Below, piece by piece: positions 1-49,306 of a stretch of DNA of 49,306 bases; positions within the stretch are counted from its first letter, which is position 1; each line of letters starts with the position of its first letter. The DNA is taken from positions 1 through 49,306 of the forward strand of contig CAIFEY010000022.1 of assembly GCA_903789635.1 (NCBI GenBank). The letters are read 5' to 3'. Source of the DNA: an uncultured Eubacteriaceae bacterium (GTDB lineage: Bacteria; Bacillota; Clostridia; Peptostreptococcales; Anaerovoracaceae). The notes beneath the pieces were generated by a model. It searched no databases. It saw only the letters and a list, made by a program, of their open reading frames with translations, and was not told the DNA's origin. The position numbers and the translations under genes are program-made.

Positions 1-53
1 CCCCTAAAGTAGATTTCGATCTTTTTGCTGTCTACTTTAGGGTGATCATATCA
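1..53. repeat. Left terminal inverted repeat with internal hairpin
   Basis: The first 53 bases are identical to the reverse complement of the last 53 (49254-49306); identity stops abruptly inside. The repeat holds a perfect 12-bp hairpin, CCCTAAAGTAGA (2-13) with TCTACTTTAGGG (31-42), and a 17-nt loop. Because both window ends stop on the same base of the same repeat, a dispersed element that broke the assembly is the simplest reading. A true linear-replicon terminus is not supported by any gene here. Confidence 0.85.
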
Positions 54-4756: not shown

Positions 4757-5455
4757 CTACTTCAATGCCTCTTCGTTCAGGATGATGATCTCCTTACCCT
4801 GCAGGTCGATCAGGCCCTCATCCTTCATCTTGGTCAGTTCGCGGGAGAGGGACGGGCGCGCGACGTTCAGGTACTCCGCCATGCGTTCGCGGTTCATTTT
4901 CAGCGGGCCGGTCGTGTTGTCCTTGGTCCAGATCATCAGCATCTTGGAGATCTTCTGGCGCAGGGATGCCCCGTTCATGATTTCCAGGCGTTCATCCTGC
5001 CGCTTAGCCTTCAGGGCAAAGACGTACAGCATGTTGGAAATCAGCTTGGCGTGATAGGAACATACGTTCACGCATGTGTGCAGCAGGAAGTCCTTCGGCA
5101 TCAGGATCAGCGTCGACTTCTTGATCGCCTCCGCGTAGCTGTCGTAGGTCTCCGGGCTCAGGAACAGGTCCTCGGCGCCGATGATGTCGCCGAGTTCAGT
5201 CATCGTCGAGATGATCTCCCGCCTTCCGGTGGAAGAGTCGCGGCCCAGCAGCACCGAACCGTCGACCAGCAGGAACATCTTCTTAGGCTTGTCCGTCTGT
5301 GTGAAGAGAAACTCGCCTTTGTCTAAACTCACGAGCTCTGCCCCGCTGCAGTCAAAACAGCTCCGGATGTCCTCCGCCGTCATCTCCTTAAACAATGTAC
5401 ACTCCGTCAGCCGCTCCGTAACCTCCTGCGCATTCTTCGCCAGCTGCTTCTTCAT
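4757..5455 (-). CDS. Crp/Fnr family transcriptional regulator
   Basis: A 232-aa regulator. An N-terminal cyclic-nucleotide-binding-like beta-roll (about residues 15-130, with LVDGSVLLGRD) is followed by a dimer helix and a C-terminal winged helix (RMAEYLNVARPSLSRELTKM, near 180-200) of the Crp/Fnr type. No N-terminal Fnr-type Cys cluster is obvious, though Cys residues occur early (CTLF, CFDC). The ligand is unknown. The ATG at 5455 is preceded by AGGAGG at 5-nt spacing, so I prefer it to the longer frame. A 9-bp inverted repeat in its upstream region (5491-5541) suggests autoregulation (inference). Confidence 0.9.
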   Translation of the reverse strand: MKKQLAKNAQEVTERLTECTLFKEMTAEDIRSCFDCSGAELVSLDKGEFLFTQTDKPKKMFLLVDGSVLLGRDSSTGRREIISTMTELGDIIGAEDLFLSPETYDSYAEAIKKSTLILMPKDFLLHTCVNVCSYHAKLISNMLYVFALKAKRQDERLEIMNGASLRQKISKMLMIWTKDNTTGPLKMNRERMAEYLNVARPSLSRELTKMKDEGLIDLQGKEIIILNEEALK

Positions 5456-5490
5456 TCCTTCCTCCTTTGGCAAAACCGGACAGTAAACTC

Positions 5491-5541
5491 CATGTAAATG
5501 AATTCTCAGTATTTATATATCCTAGTTGTTGTATTTACATG
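5491..5541. promoter_or_regulatory. Inverted repeat CATGTAAAT before the Crp/Fnr gene
   Basis: CATGTAAAT (5491-5499) and ATTTACATG (5533-5541) form a perfect 9-bp inverted repeat with a 33-bp AT-rich spacer that includes a likely minus-strand -10 region (TATATAAATAC). A pair of operator half-sites is plausible, with the adjacent Crp/Fnr protein as the obvious candidate. Confidence 0.4.
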
Positions 5542-5582
5542 CTTTAGTAATTATGCCCCGAAAAAGAGTTCCAAAAACAAAA

Positions 5583-5633
5583 AGGGCGGCCGACCCTGAA
5601 CGGAATGACGAACATTCCGCAGAGCCGGCCTTT
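5583..5633 (-). terminator. Compound hairpin with minus-strand U-tract
   Basis: CGGAATG and CATTCCG pair around a 5-nt loop, with GGCCG and CGGCC pairing outside. On the minus strand it is followed by CCCTTTTTGTTTTTGG, a good U-tract. It would stop minus-strand transcription coming out of the gene-free region before it reaches the Crp/Fnr promoter. Confidence 0.6.
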
Positions 5634-6444
5634 GGGTTATTTCTATGGGGGCTTTCGCCCTTGGTCGTTGCTTAACCTGCCGGTTTAATCACCATAACCA
5701 TAAAATACCGTACCGTTAACTGTATTACCGTACAATTAACTTTTGCTTTGTTTTGTGTTTTGCTCACTTTGCTTGTCGTTATTATAGCAATGGCCCGGCA
5801 GTGATTTCCGTCACATATGTTACGATTCGTTACACTTTCAGCGAGTTTTTCCGACAAAAATTTTACTTATTGTCTAAATAGCTTGTTCTGCCGTACTTCG
5901 GTGATTTCAGAGAAGGAGGACGGATGCTTCCGTGTGGTCGCATCCGCCAATTGTAGCAGTCGTTGCGGAATCGCTCGCTTAGGGTGCCCGTGTTTTAGGA
6001 TTTTTGGAGTAATGGTTGGCGGGGGCCTGTGATTATTCGCGGGGGTAATGGCAGTCGGGGTCGCATGAGGGACTGCGAGATAGAAAATACCGGGGGACAA
6101 ACCACGCATACAGCGTTCACCAGATATTTCCATTTTCTTAGGAATATCCCTCTCCAATTTCCCGATTTCCGAACTCACCTCCATTTTGTCGGATAACACC
6201 CTCCCTAAACGGTGAATTCCGAAGCTTCCATGCTGTGATCACATCAATTTCACGCTTGTCGTCTCCGTAGCGGTCATCTTTACCACCGTTATCCAAGGGG
6301 GTGATCGCACATCTGCTGTTATCCTGCATCCATATTCCAGAGATTATACCTATAACGCCCTCGATTCCAACCAATAATGAACACTGCGATATTCGGCAGT
6401 CGGGTATGCCGTCTCGTCTATTCGGAAATTTGCATTCAGGCCCC
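5634..6444. other. Gene-free stretch left of hairpin array A
   Basis: No coding region with a ribosome site is visible. Features: a possible plus-strand promoter (TTGCTC, 17 nt, TATAGC, about 5760-5788), a small hairpin CGGATGC...GCATCCG (about 5931-5947), and one isolated copy of the GGGTGCCCGTGTTTT word (5982-5996) that is abundant in the repeat tract at 8.0-8.8 kb. The rest shows short scattered inverted repeats only. Confidence 0.4.
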
Positions 6445-7063
6445 TGAATTCCGAGTTATTTTTTTAACATTCGGAATTCATCCTTTTCAGTGGGTCGTTT
6501 CCGACAAGGGACACCGCGGCGACGACATGAATGCGGTCGCCGCGGAAGGAGGCAACGCGCGAGCCATGAAGCTGCGCGTTGCTGTAATTGTAGTAGTGGT
6601 AGAAACTGGAGATCACAGGGATGCATCTCCAGTTTCTAGTTATTATAAGAAAGGTAGAAATCGGCCTCCGCTGTCGCGTCGTCCGATTTCTATGATTTTT
6701 TCGCCGCGCGCCCTGAATGCCGGGATGGCGCGCGGCGAGCGGCCCGCCGGCCCTTTCGCACAGCTGGGGTTGGGGCCGCGGGCAGAAGGTTGAGATCCGG
6801 CTTCGCTAACGCTGACGCCGGATCTCTATGATTGTTTCCCCCGCACGCTAAAGAAGAATGAAAATAAGCGCGCGGGGGAGCTTTAAGTATACAGGATGCA
6901 CCATTAAATGGAACTCATTACACTTTAAATTGTTAATTGCGTACCCGACGGTTTCCAGCAATTACCATCCTGAGCAAGACCGCTGTTTTTTCGGATGACT
7001 TCTCCCGGAAAAGCACCCTCAAAATTCCGGGCTCCGGACTCGGCAGCCTCGGGCTGCTTTTTT
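6445..7063 (+). ncRNA. Hairpin array A, candidate structured RNA
   Basis: At least nine consecutive hairpins with different stems. Left/right arms: 6445-6454/6471-6480, 6514-6523/6536-6545, 6552-6560/6574-6582, 6600-6613/6625-6638 (14 bp), 6655-6664/6683-6692, 6701-6712/6727-6738 (12 bp), 6742-6753/6773-6783 (one bulge), 6792-6801/6817-6826, 6837-6848/6868-6879 (one mismatch). A weaker one follows at 6934-6964. Period is about 40-55 nt and loops are 11-19 nt. Two hairpins share flanks but not stems: after 6692 and after 6826 the linker reads CTATGATT then TTTC, while the stems read AGAAATCGG and AGATCCGGC, each with its own complement. That pattern suggests selection on structure. A terminator (7043-7063) closes the segment on the plus strand. 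The strand and the transcript are inferred. Confidence 0.45.
7043..7063 (+). terminator. Rho-independent terminator after array A
   Basis: GCAGCC (7043-7048) and GGCTGC (7052-7057) with a 3-nt loop, followed by a run of T, form a classical plus-strand terminator. No protein gene precedes it on that strand, which supports transcription of array A as a non-coding RNA. Confidence 0.7.
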
Positions 7064-7388
7064 GGTTCTGTCAATGTGAATTAGGATCGGTTTTATGAAG
7101 AAATCAAAAAACGGTCTGTCAATTTTTTCCCGAAGAAGAAAATATGAATTCTTGTACGCCGATCTGTACACGAAAATGCCGTGAACCGCTCCTCTGCTCC
7201 CCATCCTGACGTCCAGAGAGCGTCCATGATATCAGCGTCCGAACGCGACTTTAATCAAACCTCAAGTTGTCAGACTCCATCTGTTTCACGTCAAGATTCA
7301 CCATTCCATTACAGCGATTTCTGGCATCGATACTCACTATCGTTGATCCGATTGTGCACAACCGTTCCGAAATCGTCGATCTTTACAC
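7064..7388. other. Gene-free spacer between arrays A and B
   Basis: Nothing recognisable as a gene. It is less GC-rich than the arrays and holds only short inverted repeats (for example CGATA...TATCG near 7328-7342). Confidence 0.4.
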
Positions 7389-7466
7389 AATAACATAATT
7401 AATTTTTTAACATTCCCGAGAACGGGATTTTTCACCGTTTGACAAAATCCCTCTGCCTGTACTAAT
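7389..7466 (+). promoter_or_regulatory. AT-rich leader and promoter of array B
   Basis: The leader (7389-7415) ends in ATTTTTTAACATTC; 23 nt later comes a perfect -35 TTGACA (7439-7444), a 16-nt spacer, and an extended -10 TGTACTAAT (7458-7466). The AT-tract could act as an UP element. The leader is repeated with one mismatch in 27 bases on the minus strand at 23682-23708, and its last 17 bases with one mismatch before array A (6456-6472). Confidence 0.65.
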
Positions 7467-7472
7467 CTCGGA

Positions 7473-7975
7473 TATTGTATACTTTCGTCATCAATCCCAC
7501 TGTTCGAACCGTCCGGTATCCCGGAGGGCCAACGCCTTGCCCGGAGGGCAGCGCGGCGGCGGCTTTACTGTTATCATCACCGCCGCCGCGCCCTCGGCGC
7601 GCCACTTTCCTCAACAAGGCGCGCCGAAACAATCAAAGGAATTGGACCAAAGCGGCAGCGACGTCCAATTCCCTCCTTCGGCCGACCCCCAACTCAAGCA
7701 AAAGGCGGCCGGCCTACAATCCCGGTTCCGAGCTTCGTCTCGGAACCGGCGACATTGCCGCGCCTCGCGCGGCAGCAACAATCGGAGGATGCGAAGCAAA
7801 CCTGCTGAGCATCCTCCCACCTTCCAAGACAATCCCGGAACGCGGTCGACACTCGGAGACCGCGTTCCTACCATAAATGCAATAATAGCCACCGGACAAG
7901 CCCCGCGCCGTCCGGTGGCAGCCTTCTTAAAAAATCGAAGAACTCGCGAAGCCCTGCGCTGAACGAGTTCTACCA
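7473..7975 (+). ncRNA. Hairpin array B, candidate structured RNA
   Basis: About ten successive hairpins downstream of a strong promoter. Arms: 7551-7562/7580-7591 (12 bp), 7594-7603/7618-7627, 7638-7647/7663-7672, 7679-7687/7704-7711 (one bulge), 7722-7732/7739-7749 (11 bp, 6-nt loop), 7756-7763/7767-7774, 7784-7792/7809-7817, 7837-7847/7858-7868 (11 bp), 7888-7897/7910-7919, 7939-7946/7964-7971. Stems are perfect but share no sequence, so this is not a repeat array of the CRISPR type. Some linkers recur: TTCCTACCATA after 7868 and TTCTACCATT after 7971, resembling TTCTATGATT in array A. Reading frames through it change with each hairpin and lack ribosome sites. No clear terminator follows. 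Function is unknown. Confidence 0.45.
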
Positions 7976-8036
7976 TTCCCCCCTCTCCGCGCCAGCGGCC
8001 ATGCGCCCCCGCCGAACATTAATCTCGCACATCCTC
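7976..8036. other. Short spacer after array B
   Basis: C-rich spacer without a recognisable signal, joining array B to the degenerate repeat tract. Confidence 0.3.
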
Positions 8037-8827
8037 CGACCTCCTTTACGCCCGCGACCAACCCATAAACCCCAGCCGAGCAAAAACATCAAAACACGGC
8101 CGCCATCGCATGCGAATTACGGACCTACACAGCTCCCAGAACACAGGCGCCATCAACTCACGGCTTCGCTCTACAAGCTGTACCAGAACACAGGTGCCCG
8201 AACCAAGCGACTCCGCAGCGACAGCTGCATTTCGCTTCCGAGCCCCGCCATACGACTTGCGGCAAACCAATCGAGCTTCACTTATAGCTCGCGAATCGTG
8301 AGGGCAACTGCATAAGGAAGCGTACCGCTTCCCTCAAACGGCCCCGCGACCTCCTTCACAGCCGCGACCAATCACAATCCCTCGCCAACCAATAAGCCAA
8401 AAACACTGAAACACAGGCACCATCAGCGAGCGATTCCGCAGTGACAGATACAATTCCGCGAAGAACGACAGCAGGATTTCGTTGGAGCTGCACTCTTTCT
8501 TAGTGCAGCTCCCGAAATCCTATGAGTTCTGAGCAAGGAATTGTCTGTCACGAGGACCTAGTGAGCTGAGGGTGCCCGTGTTTTCTCTTAGTGCAACTCC
8601 CGAAATCCCTTGAGTTCTGAGTATTGAATTGTCTGTTACGAGGACTTAGCACGCTTCGGGAACCCGTGTTTCTGTGTATACACTTGCCAAGCGCGAAGCC
8701 TTAGCGAACTGATGGCGCCCGTATTTCCCTAGGAGCTGCCGTTGTCCGTATTCCGTGCGCTGATGGCGCCCGTGTTTCCCTAGGAGCTGCCGTCGTCCGT
8801 ATTCCGCGCGCTGATGGCGCCCGCCTA
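8037..8827. repeat. Tract of degenerate direct and inverted repeats
   Basis: The tract is built from copies of a word AACACRGGCRCCATCA in both orientations (plus strand near 8092, 8140, 8188, 8408; minus strand near 8566, 8655, 8711, 8762, 8813). Clear parts: an ~85-bp direct repeat (8037-8121 and 8346-8430); an 88-bp direct repeat starting at 8499 and 8587; a 51-bp unit starting at 8709, 8760 and 8811; and a large imperfect inverted repeat covering 8412-8580 whose centre is a strong hairpin (GGATTTCG, bulge, GGAGCTGCAC at 8474-8493; complement 8503-8520). A palindrome GGAAGCG...CGCTTCC lies at about 8312-8328. No coding signal fits; the tract ends at the stop codon of the next gene. Confidence 0.7.
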
Positions 8828-9028
8828 CAACAGGGAAACTTCGAAGCACTGGTCCTTCCACGAAATGTCGTCCACCCGGAACCCGTACGCCTTCAGTTCC
8901 TCCCTGTGATACTGGAAGCGGTGGTCGATCTTCACGTCGGAGACCTCCTCCGCCTTCTCGAACGAGATGACCTCGTGCTGGCCGCAGTTCACCTGGATGT
9001 AGCGCCAGAGCGGATCGTACTTACTCAT
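8825..9028 (-). CDS. Small conserved-looking hypothetical protein
   Basis: A 67-aa soluble protein starting MSKYDPLWRYIQ, with a predicted mix of helix and strand and no membrane segment. I do not recognise a family. It overlaps the 3' end of the ADP-ribosylglycohydrolase gene by a few bases on the same strand, a typical sign of co-translation, so the two probably act together or at least are co-expressed. An upstream in-frame start at 9034 is possible. Its last codons border the 51-bp repeat tract. Confidence 0.6.
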   Translation of the reverse strand: MSKYDPLWRYIQVNCGQHEVISFEKAEEVSDVKIDHRFQYHREELKAYGFRVDDISWKDQCFEVSLL

Positions 9029-9833
9029 TGGCACCCTGTACTTCCTTGACGCGGGCCTGGAATGCCGTGAGGATCGCCTTCTCGTCGCTGTCCAGGTGCT
9101 TCAGGACGACTTCCTTGTACTCCTCCGGGATTCCGTAGAATGCCTCGCCGATCGCGCCGGCCATGCAGGCGATCGTGTCGCTGTCGCCGCCCAGGGAGAC
9201 GGCGCCTCTGACGACCTCCTCGTAGTTGTTGGCTTCGAGGAAGGCGGTAATCGCCTCAGGGACGGATCTCTGGCAGGTCGCGATGAATCCGTAGTTCGGG
9301 CGGATCTCGTCCAGGGTCCTGGTCAGGTCGTAGCCGAAGTGTTCGGTGATGTACCTGCGGATCGCGTCCTTGTCGGAACCGGTGCGGGCCAGGAAGACGG
9401 CTGCGGCGACGGCCTTGGCGCCCTTCAGGCCTTCCTTGTGGTTGTGGGTGACGCCTGCAGTAAGCTCAGCGGCGTGCAGCGTCTCCTCCATGGTCGGATA
9501 CAGCCAGCCCGCGGAGGACACACGCATCGCGCATCCGTTTCCGTAGCTGTGGTACGGCTTTGGCTCCGTCTCGCGCAGCCAGAGGTTGAAGCGGTCGCCG
9601 TAGCCGGCATCCGGATACTTCTTTCCGAAGGCCTGCATGTCCTCGATGACGGCCGCGCGGATCGCGTCGTCCGACTCCGTTCCGTGCTCGGTCAGCGCCT
9701 TGCCGACCGCGAGCGTCATGTAGGAATCGTCCGTCGGCTTGGACTCCTCCGTCAGCAGCTTAAAGTTAAAATCGTTCGTATTGTTGAATTCGTAGACCGA
9801 ACCGACGATATCTCCAAAAATTGCTCCCAGCAT
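9021..9833 (-). CDS. ADP-ribosylglycohydrolase family protein
   Basis: A 270-aa protein of the DraG/ADP-ribosylglycohydrolase family, Mg-dependent enzymes that remove ADP-ribose from proteins, nucleic acids or small molecules. Seen: GDIVGSVYEF at 7-16, TDDSYMT at 34-40 (metal-binding Asp residues in TDD), and GGDSDTIACMAGAIGEAFYG at 215-234 with the second metal-binding Asp group. Length is typical for the compact bacterial form. AGGAGG lies 7 nt before the ATG. The target cannot be told from context; no ADP-ribosyltransferase toxin or nitrogenase gene is nearby. The small 67-aa gene overlaps its 3' end. Confidence 0.9.
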   Translation of the reverse strand: MLGAIFGDIVGSVYEFNNTNDFNFKLLTEESKPTDDSYMTLAVGKALTEHGTESDDAIRAAVIEDMQAFGKKYPDAGYGDRFNLWLRETEPKPYHSYGNGCAMRVSSAGWLYPTMEETLHAAELTAGVTHNHKEGLKGAKAVAAAVFLARTGSDKDAIRRYITEHFGYDLTRTLDEIRPNYGFIATCQRSVPEAITAFLEANNYEEVVRGAVSLGGDSDTIACMAGAIGEAFYGIPEEYKEVVLKHLDSDEKAILTAFQARVKEVQGANE

Positions 9834-49253: not shown

Positions 49254-49306
49254 TGATATGATCACCCTAAAGTAGACAGCAAAAAGATCGAAATCTACTT
49301 TAGGGG
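49254..49306. repeat. Right terminal inverted repeat
   Basis: Exact reverse complement of bases 1-53, including the 12-bp hairpin; see the left copy. Confidence 0.85.

Follow-up and report, generated by a model that had tools for sequence, protein, structure and literature searches.

The non-coding island and its neighbours

The window, i.e. the whole stretch of 49,306 nucleotides that was analyzed, belongs to a single draft genome of 2.64 Mb in 77 contigs (97.9% complete), hereafter the own genome. Between a gene for a Crp-like regulator (4757-5473, - strand) and a gene for an ADP-ribosylglycohydrolase (9021-9833, - strand), both assigned by Pfam, the window contains a non-coding island with two arrays of hairpins, denoted blocks A and B, a middle region between them and a further long palindrome, denoted the C repeat. 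The features are as follows (unit strand and hairpin classes are described below).

5550-9020, no strand: non-coding island, delimited by the Pfam-annotated flanks, six inner ORFs without a Pfam match and the repeat map
6445-6885, + strand: block A; its unit strand, which reads 5' tag - hairpin - linker resembling GATTGTTT, is the + strand, and the units point to the middle
6600-6638, + strand: hairpin TAGAAACTGGAGAT/ATCTCCAGTTTCTA with a 14-bp stem, preceded by AGTGG (stem search)
6651-6738, + strand: double unit; class-1 hairpin at 6655-6692 (GG before TAG), linker TGATTTTT, GC-rich class-2 hairpin at 6701-6738
6787-6882, + strand: double unit; class-1 hairpin GAGATCCGGC at 6792-6826, linker TATGATTGTT, class-2 hairpin at 6837-6879
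6886-7499, + strand: middle, of which about 480 bp (6971-7451) are common to most of the better copies
7384-7451, + strand: best-kept stretch of the middle, ATAACATAATTAATTTTTTAACATTCCCGAGAACGGGATTTTTCACCGTTTGACAAAATCCC, including TGACAAA
7551-7975, - strand: block B, an array of the same kind, inverted; the unit strand is the - strand
7594-7672, - strand: double unit; class-1 hairpin GGAATTGGAC at 7638-7672, linker TTTGATTGTT, class-2 hairpin TCGGCGCGCC at 7594-7627
7756-7817, - strand: double unit; class-1 hairpin GGAGGATGC with a TC-type loop at 7784-7817, linker GATTGTTGC, class-2 hairpin TGCCGCGC at 7756-7774
7837-7872, - strand: class-1 hairpin GGAACGCGGTC-TCCGAGTGTC-GACCGCGTTCC, with GGTAG across its foot
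7888-7971, - strand: hairpins GCCACCGGAC (7888-7919) and GGT-AGAACTCG (7939-7971) (stem search)
8409-8583, no strand: C repeat, a single long hairpin of 175 nt whose ends are AAACAC..GTGTTT (repeat listing and folding)

None of the six ORFs inside the island gave a Pfam match at E ≤ 0.1, in agreement with the initial annotation, according to which no protein is encoded here. A protein-coding reading was rejected on this ground and because the three + strand frames from the conserved ATG of the middle, compared over the copies described below, are broken by stop codons. A phage origin was dropped as well: the region 6000-9000 had no match in 50,697 phage records, and the middle pattern had 0 matches among viral contigs. 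Elsewhere in the window, an M18 peptidase shows 45-51% identity to five uncultured Lachnospiraceae and Clostridia bins. A palindrome, CCCTAAAGTAGA...TCTACTTTAGGG, is shared by the two contig ends (window 1-42 and 49265-49306), and the ends of several other contigs share ~50-55 bp resembling insertion-sequence ends, many within hairpin islands.

Hairpin arrays compared to shuffled sequences

A plain search (stem of at least 7 bp, loop of at most 30 nt) identified 9 hairpins in each block (6445-6879 and 7551-7971); an imperfect extra hairpin, CGGCCG/CGGCCGG, is visible in the fold of block B near 7679-7714. The two blocks thus comprise 18-19 hairpins, mostly with perfect stems of 7-14 bp; about nineteen, with stems of 8-14 bp, had been claimed from the first reading of the sequence. 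When the blocks were cut out and compared to 30 shuffles each, block A contained 7 stems of at least 8 bp (shuffle mean 0.43, maximum 2; a wider listing gives 8 such stems, one of which ends exactly at the cut-out edge) and block B contained 9 (shuffle mean 0.33, maximum 2); in the middle, there was 1 such stem vs 0.23 in shuffles. Folding against shuffled controls, the check suggested along with that claim, showed both blocks to be about 10 standard deviations better than shuffled sequences, with RNA fold z-scores of -10.2 for block A, -10.6 for block B and -1.8 for the middle. For single-stranded DNA, the z-scores were -11.1 (+ strand) and -10.7 (- strand) for block B and -12.9 (- strand) for block A.

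Dispersal in the own genome and searches of relatives

The initial annotation pictured a single locus. However, when 6440-7990 was used as a DNA query, 107 matches on 25 contigs of the own genome were obtained, and a covariance model built on one double hairpin (R1), which matches the double unit at C22:6652-6742, yielded at least 70 matches (70 scored of 2003 candidates). Clustering 46 of the 107 DNA match positions and all 70 R1 matches at 2.5 kb gave copies or fragments at 48 places on 28 of the 77 contigs, the window included; some of these places hold fragments only, and contig breaks fall inside hairpin islands. Twenty-eight stretches taken around own-genome matches are referred to as array loci. 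One of them carries an array block of ~230 bp in three tandem repeats (L016:7500-8274), and the longest perfect stem noticed in an array hairpin, 24 bp, is found at L026:4089-4144.

With at most 6-8 candidates scored per relative, a DNA search of 60 relatives gave a single match, of 31 bases, and the 3' part of the island had no match; faint copies may have escaped such a search. R1 likewise gave no convincing match in relatives with up to 70 candidates scored per genome, a limit that might also hide faint copies (best E 0.011, in genome G004, where the matched locus has no hairpin array and no second copy exists in that genome). The middle pattern had 0 matches in genome_contigs, a collection that possibly leaves out the own genome, and no Rfam family matched the whole window at gathering thresholds. 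The search for homologues in Rfam and in related genomes, as proposed initially, therefore produced many paralogs in the own genome and none found in the 60 relatives.

At the places inspected, the islands sit between unrelated genes. Thirty flanking proteins were picked from an ORF list and scanned by Pfam; 17 had a match at 1e-5, to unrelated families, one being an integrase-type transposase, and no constant neighbour gene was identified among the 30.

Two alternating classes of hairpins

The arrays alternate class-1 hairpins, with variable stems, and GC-rich class-2 hairpins, in the order class 1 - linker - class 2 - AAGGTG-like sequence - class 1 and so on, when read along the unit strand. 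Class 1 consists of a 5' GTNG-like tag, a stem that varies with position, a TC/TC mismatch and, often, an inner mini-stem. Many class-1 loops read TC...TC on the unit strand, i.e. GA...GA on the other, outward strand: among 144 distinct hairpins selected by their linkers (a rule that some chance hairpins also satisfy), 53 have GA..GA loops on the outward strand and 2 on the unit strand, compared to 1.4 for shuffled loops (maximum 7 over 2000). An inner stem of at least 2 bp is present in 27 of the 46 distinct GA..GA loops (8.1 expected, maximum 17). The array loci have 385 hairpins, 81 of them with loops of the TC..TC or GA..GA kind; such loops were seen in 0 of 83 hairpins in ten 20-kb control stretches of the own genome, 0 of 22 in the remainder of the window, 3 of 268 in four congeners and 0 of 21 in five named Clostridia loci.

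The tag is similarly enriched. GTAG occurs in the 8 nt before the stem or its first 4 nt in 36 of the 144 linker-selected hairpins (2.6 expected), and GTGG near the palindrome in 15 (3.2 expected). In 48 of 78 distinct TC..TC hairpins, GTN[GA] lies 6-13 nt ahead of the TC (background 17%), most commonly at 8 nt (26 cases).

In 74 double units defined by the linker rule, 27 linkers contain GATTGT and 19 contain TTTTT. Outward linkers are composed of 36% A, 28% C, 25% T and 11% G. The T runs, which lie on the unit strand (e.g., TGATTTTTT), are what tandem intrinsic terminators might show that shield the middle against transcription arriving from either side. We consider such a role very improbable, given that the other 55 linkers lack a run of five T, with GATTGT in 27, and that a terminator scan of 5400-9100 found 9 sites vs 4.1 in shuffles, one of them an array hairpin, at a loop limit of 3-8 that would miss most of the array. 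To our knowledge, neither the TC/TC mismatch nor the tag is a feature of terminators.

Polarity of the units around the middle

The units run head to tail, with the tags outward, such that both sides face the middle. Counting hairpins of the TC..TC type that lie no more than 1.5 kb from a middle, we found 46 of 47 oriented toward it (9 farther ones were set aside); the same holds for 36 of 37 double units (5 farther ones set aside). The exceptions lie at L018:242-348, in a block that ends at the contig start, so that its own middle may be missing. According to the repeat map, inspected by eye, two loci (L024 and L018) have B-type units to the left of the middle and A-type units to the right, turned accordingly, which suggests that polarity is not solely inherited from one ancestral block; the independent turned cases are few, and polarity is partly inherited through whole-block copying.

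Such polarity would also fit divergent transcription, which counts against the reading of the arrays as REP-like DNA repeats that we come to prefer below. In that case, promoters in the middle would fire in both directions, and the outward strands would fold into chains of hairpins that contain tandem G.A pairs, are separated by A/C-rich linkers and serve as protein-binding or scaffold RNAs. The orientation of the units, the outward bias of GA..GA loops, the inner stems in these loops and the A/C-rich outward linkers are all consistent with this proposal, as is TGACAAA, which points outward from the right end of the middle. Divergent RNAs are the main alternative, though a tentative one, and deserve to be taken seriously in view of the strand bias of GA/GA, the richness of the linkers in A and C, and the polarity. 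Against them stand the stability that GA/GA mismatches have in DNA as well, the lack of a constant neighbour gene among the 30 scanned and of a matching Rfam family, along with observations on the stems and the middle presented in the next two sections.

Stems change while remaining paired

Paralogous hairpins that share a loop carry different, still complementary stems. In a loop-anchored test with nine loops, which were chosen from hairpins already seen, 93 of 303 distinct matches (chance ones and related copies included) had at least 7 of the 8 flanking pairs, compared to ~25 when arms were swapped between matches (the sum of nine control means). Eight of the nine loop families exceeded the control maximum and the ninth equalled it. 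There are 2-11 distinct 8-nt stems per loop family, although the GAGATCCGGC and GGAATTGGAC subfamilies keep the stem. The initial proposal that structure is kept while sequence changes is supported by these counts; the related statement that the stems share no sequence is correct in that stems vary, but they recur in paralogous copies and in families that share a loop.

In matches with at least 5 of 8 positions paired, there were 785 Watson-Crick pairs, 10 G.T, 13 A.C and 40 others, so that mispairs were near the 1:1:4 expectation under no preference, with a wobble excess on neither strand. Similarly, 156 stems were perfect vs 25 with one interior mismatch (3 G.T, 10 A.C and 12 others; six of the 10 A.C mismatches represent one shared CCCCCGCACGC variant). 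Selection on RNA should favour G.U on the transcribed strand, and since no such excess was seen, the mispairs argue against RNA selection and point to DNA over RNA. Double changes at 8 of 13 model pairs are compensatory, in an alignment that was chosen by hairpins and is, in this respect, partly circular. When folded as RNA, the unit strand was more stable in 40 of 52 regions and the outward strand in 12, and the folds contained 203 G.U pairs on the unit strand vs 96 on the outward strand, many seemingly at helix ends, where pairs are added by the G/T-rich linkers. With both the higher stability and the larger number of G.U pairs on the unit strand, outward RNA is not favoured. Of the earlier suggestion that the arrays function as RNA or as folded single-stranded DNA, possibly as a recombinase substrate, the DNA half is the better supported, and the RNA half found no direct support.

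Perfect stems without wobble intermediates would also result if the arrays were a neutral by-product, i.e. decaying repeats, without function or active mobility, whose short inverted repeats are perfected when template-switch mutations arise during replication. One study (PMC8794818) describes how stems can be repaired by intrastrand switching while the loop is preserved. The insertion-sequence-like ends shared at contig breaks in many islands are compatible with this explanation, too. However, it predicts neither the tag nor the TC/TC mismatch, the inner stem and the polarity toward the middle, and it has to be reconciled with the distribution of stem clusters outside the array loci. Clusters of at least three stems of at least 9 bp were absent from the ten control stretches of the own genome, and in 30 stretches of four congeners, sampled by position (400 kb of G008 and G006, 200 kb of G002 and G013), there were three (L077, L079 and L090, with 3-5 stems), different in kind from the window arrays. 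A purely neutral origin thus appears improbable.

The middle region

The ~480 bp of the middle (6971-7451) show 69-84% identity between copies. At its right end, TGACAAA is present in 28 of 29 copies, as TTGACA in 21 and CTGACA in 7; the only copy without it, in L014, is cut off close to the contig end. In the initial annotation, a strong promoter was placed before block B; this is really the conserved TGACAAA, and a promoter scan detected no sigma-70 site at TGACAAA or at the edge of block B, which weighs against divergent RNAs. So does the lack of a covarying RNA fold in the middle, where RNAalifold, applied to 21 copies, found a double change in only 1 of 44 pairs. As for the terminator that had been assigned after block A, a terminator-like hairpin is indeed present at 7042-7058, but its pairing is lost in several copies, as judged by eye from alignments. 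Where the parts occur together, their order is A - middle - B - C, with extra, missing or turned pieces in several loci.

A further motif of the middle, TTATGAAGAAAT...CTGTCAA at window 7091-7123, includes TTATGA[AG][GA]A in 25 of 29 copies. Read leftward, it presents TTGACA followed ~19 nt later by CATAAA, a possible candidate for a non-canonical leftward promoter.

The C repeat and other dispersed palindromes

The C repeat folds with z-scores of -10.5 and -11.0. Array loci contain 30 copies of at least 140 nt, the window's included, and the others are 69-90% identical; typical ends are AAACACGGG...CCCGTGTTT, and in several copies the arms change together, as seen by eye. Together with 8584-8840, the repeat at 8409-8583 forms a long nested palindrome, composed of the C repeat and half-repeats with a GGYGCCCGTGTTT-like common end motif.

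The congener cluster in L090 belongs to a dispersed repeat of ~265 bp with several perfect hairpins, distinct from the window's family. With a query around the L090 cluster, 39 matches were obtained in G002 and 38 in G008, and this repeat accounts for most of them. The G002 copy at L090:18760-19027 corresponds to an empty site in G008, whose chromosome carries 14 bases instead of ~267; non-coding repeats with several hairpins are thus gained or lost in the genus. The window's family, dispersed over 48 places, is putatively mobile; no empty site or target duplication emerged for it, and synteny around the Crp-like gene in 13 congeners, at best 40% identical, was unusable for this purpose.

Candidate mobilizing enzymes were sought by Pfam. 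The Y1 transposase domain typical of RAYTs (Y1_Tnp, PF01797) had 0 matches in the own genome and matched in 2 of 16 congeners (RAYT or IS200), and the reverse transcriptase domain (RVT_1, PF00078) also had 0 matches in the own genome; an element moved by a Y1 transposase or reverse-transcribed by enzymes of the own genome was discarded on this basis. One Transposase_20 gene is present on another contig of the own genome.

Interpretation

We propose, with a probability of about 0.5, that the arrays are islands of species-specific, dispersed palindromic DNA repeats that work like REP/REPIN. In such a mechanism, a protein would recognize each hairpin in folded single-stranded DNA by its tag, mismatch and foot, whatever the sequence of the stem. 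The arms would be kept complementary at the DNA level, through selection on the fold, intrastrand foldback template switching, or both; foldback template switching would copy one arm onto the other and spare the loop. A loop stable in single-stranded DNA, combined with template switching, could keep the stems perfect without G.U steps, and the blocks might then spread and be shuffled through recombination. Because neither a Y1 transposase nor a reverse transcriptase was found, the elements may be relics or may have been moved otherwise.

A bolder version, which we put forward as doubtful, is that the arrays represent a new class of elements: "bar-coded" hairpin arrays in which the tag, the GA/GA mismatch and the inner hairpin are constant, the 8-12 bp stem is a hypervariable self-complementary code, and the units are polarized around an organizing middle and kept by a non-RAYT mechanism, possibly also with a divergent structured transcript.

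If REP-like repeats are indeed at work, one genome holds scores of natural hairpin variants in which mainly the stem is free, and these would tell the features that a palindrome-reading protein recognizes (tag, mismatch, inner stem) apart from those to which it is indifferent. The arrays would also provide a test case for perfect stems produced by selection vs template-switch mutation, and would extend REP-like repeats, without the usual transposase, to a group that the REP papers considered here do not mention.

Comparison with known systems

Integron attC arrays have R and L boxes, with gene cassettes between the sites, whereas the hairpin spacing in the window leaves no room for a gene. The islands share with the large bacterial ncRNAs of Rfam a long structured intergenic sequence but match none at gathering thresholds. 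The C repeat and the 265-bp repeat of G002 and G008 are dispersed and non-coding like MITE-like long palindromes; this is a likeness in form, with neither a transposon-end match nor a target duplication established.

Dispersed hairpins of mitochondria, namely the sponge RHE, the double hairpins of Allomyces and LIMP of Lobosphaera, form families that differ between related species, according to portions of the respective papers (PMC2800124, PMC4524435). From the same portions, these elements resemble the arrays in being dispersed, non-coding, sometimes arranged side by side in twos and located in large intergenic regions. They differ from them in that the arrays lie on a bacterial chromosome and in which part is free: the loop in sponge RHE, where the stem is constant, but mostly the stem here, where the loop ends and tags are kept.

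The portions consulted of the literature on REP, mitochondrial hairpins and template switching contain no description of the window's family. Nevertheless, the initial statement that no described family fits was too strong, given that tagged bacterial palindromes (REP) come close; overall, the arrays appear to most resemble mobile bacterial palindromes. In the sections available, REP palindromes are described as having GTAG/GTGG tags, stems of 5-13 bp, loops with complementary ends and, in some families, non-complementary di- or trinucleotides between stem and loop, the commonest arrangement being inverted, head-to-head pairs with the tags outside (PMC3733652, PMC2817692, PMC3116915), whereas most REP genomes have few head-to-tail pairs or none (PMC3733652). 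The host looks like a member of the Clostridia, and the main text of two REP papers mentions neither Firmicutes nor Clostridi-.

Like REP/REPIN/BIME (the GTAG and CGTC super-families), the window's elements are short, tagged, intergenic palindromes that are clustered, carry mismatch dinucleotides and form inverted pairs. However, their stems vary from unit to unit, whereas members of a REP family share the stem; their tag is degenerate (GTNG), exact GTAG being present in only 36 of 144 hairpins; blocks of up to about ten head-to-tail units flank a 480-bp middle; class-1 hairpins alternate with a GC-rich hairpin; and the Y1 transposase of REP/RAYT systems was not found in the genome. Since a shared stem and a RAYT gene are both lacking, we describe the arrays as working like REP/REPIN and do not file them as one of these; with REPINs they share inverted tagged palindromes around a spacer, tags outside, in the form of arrays rather than single pairs.
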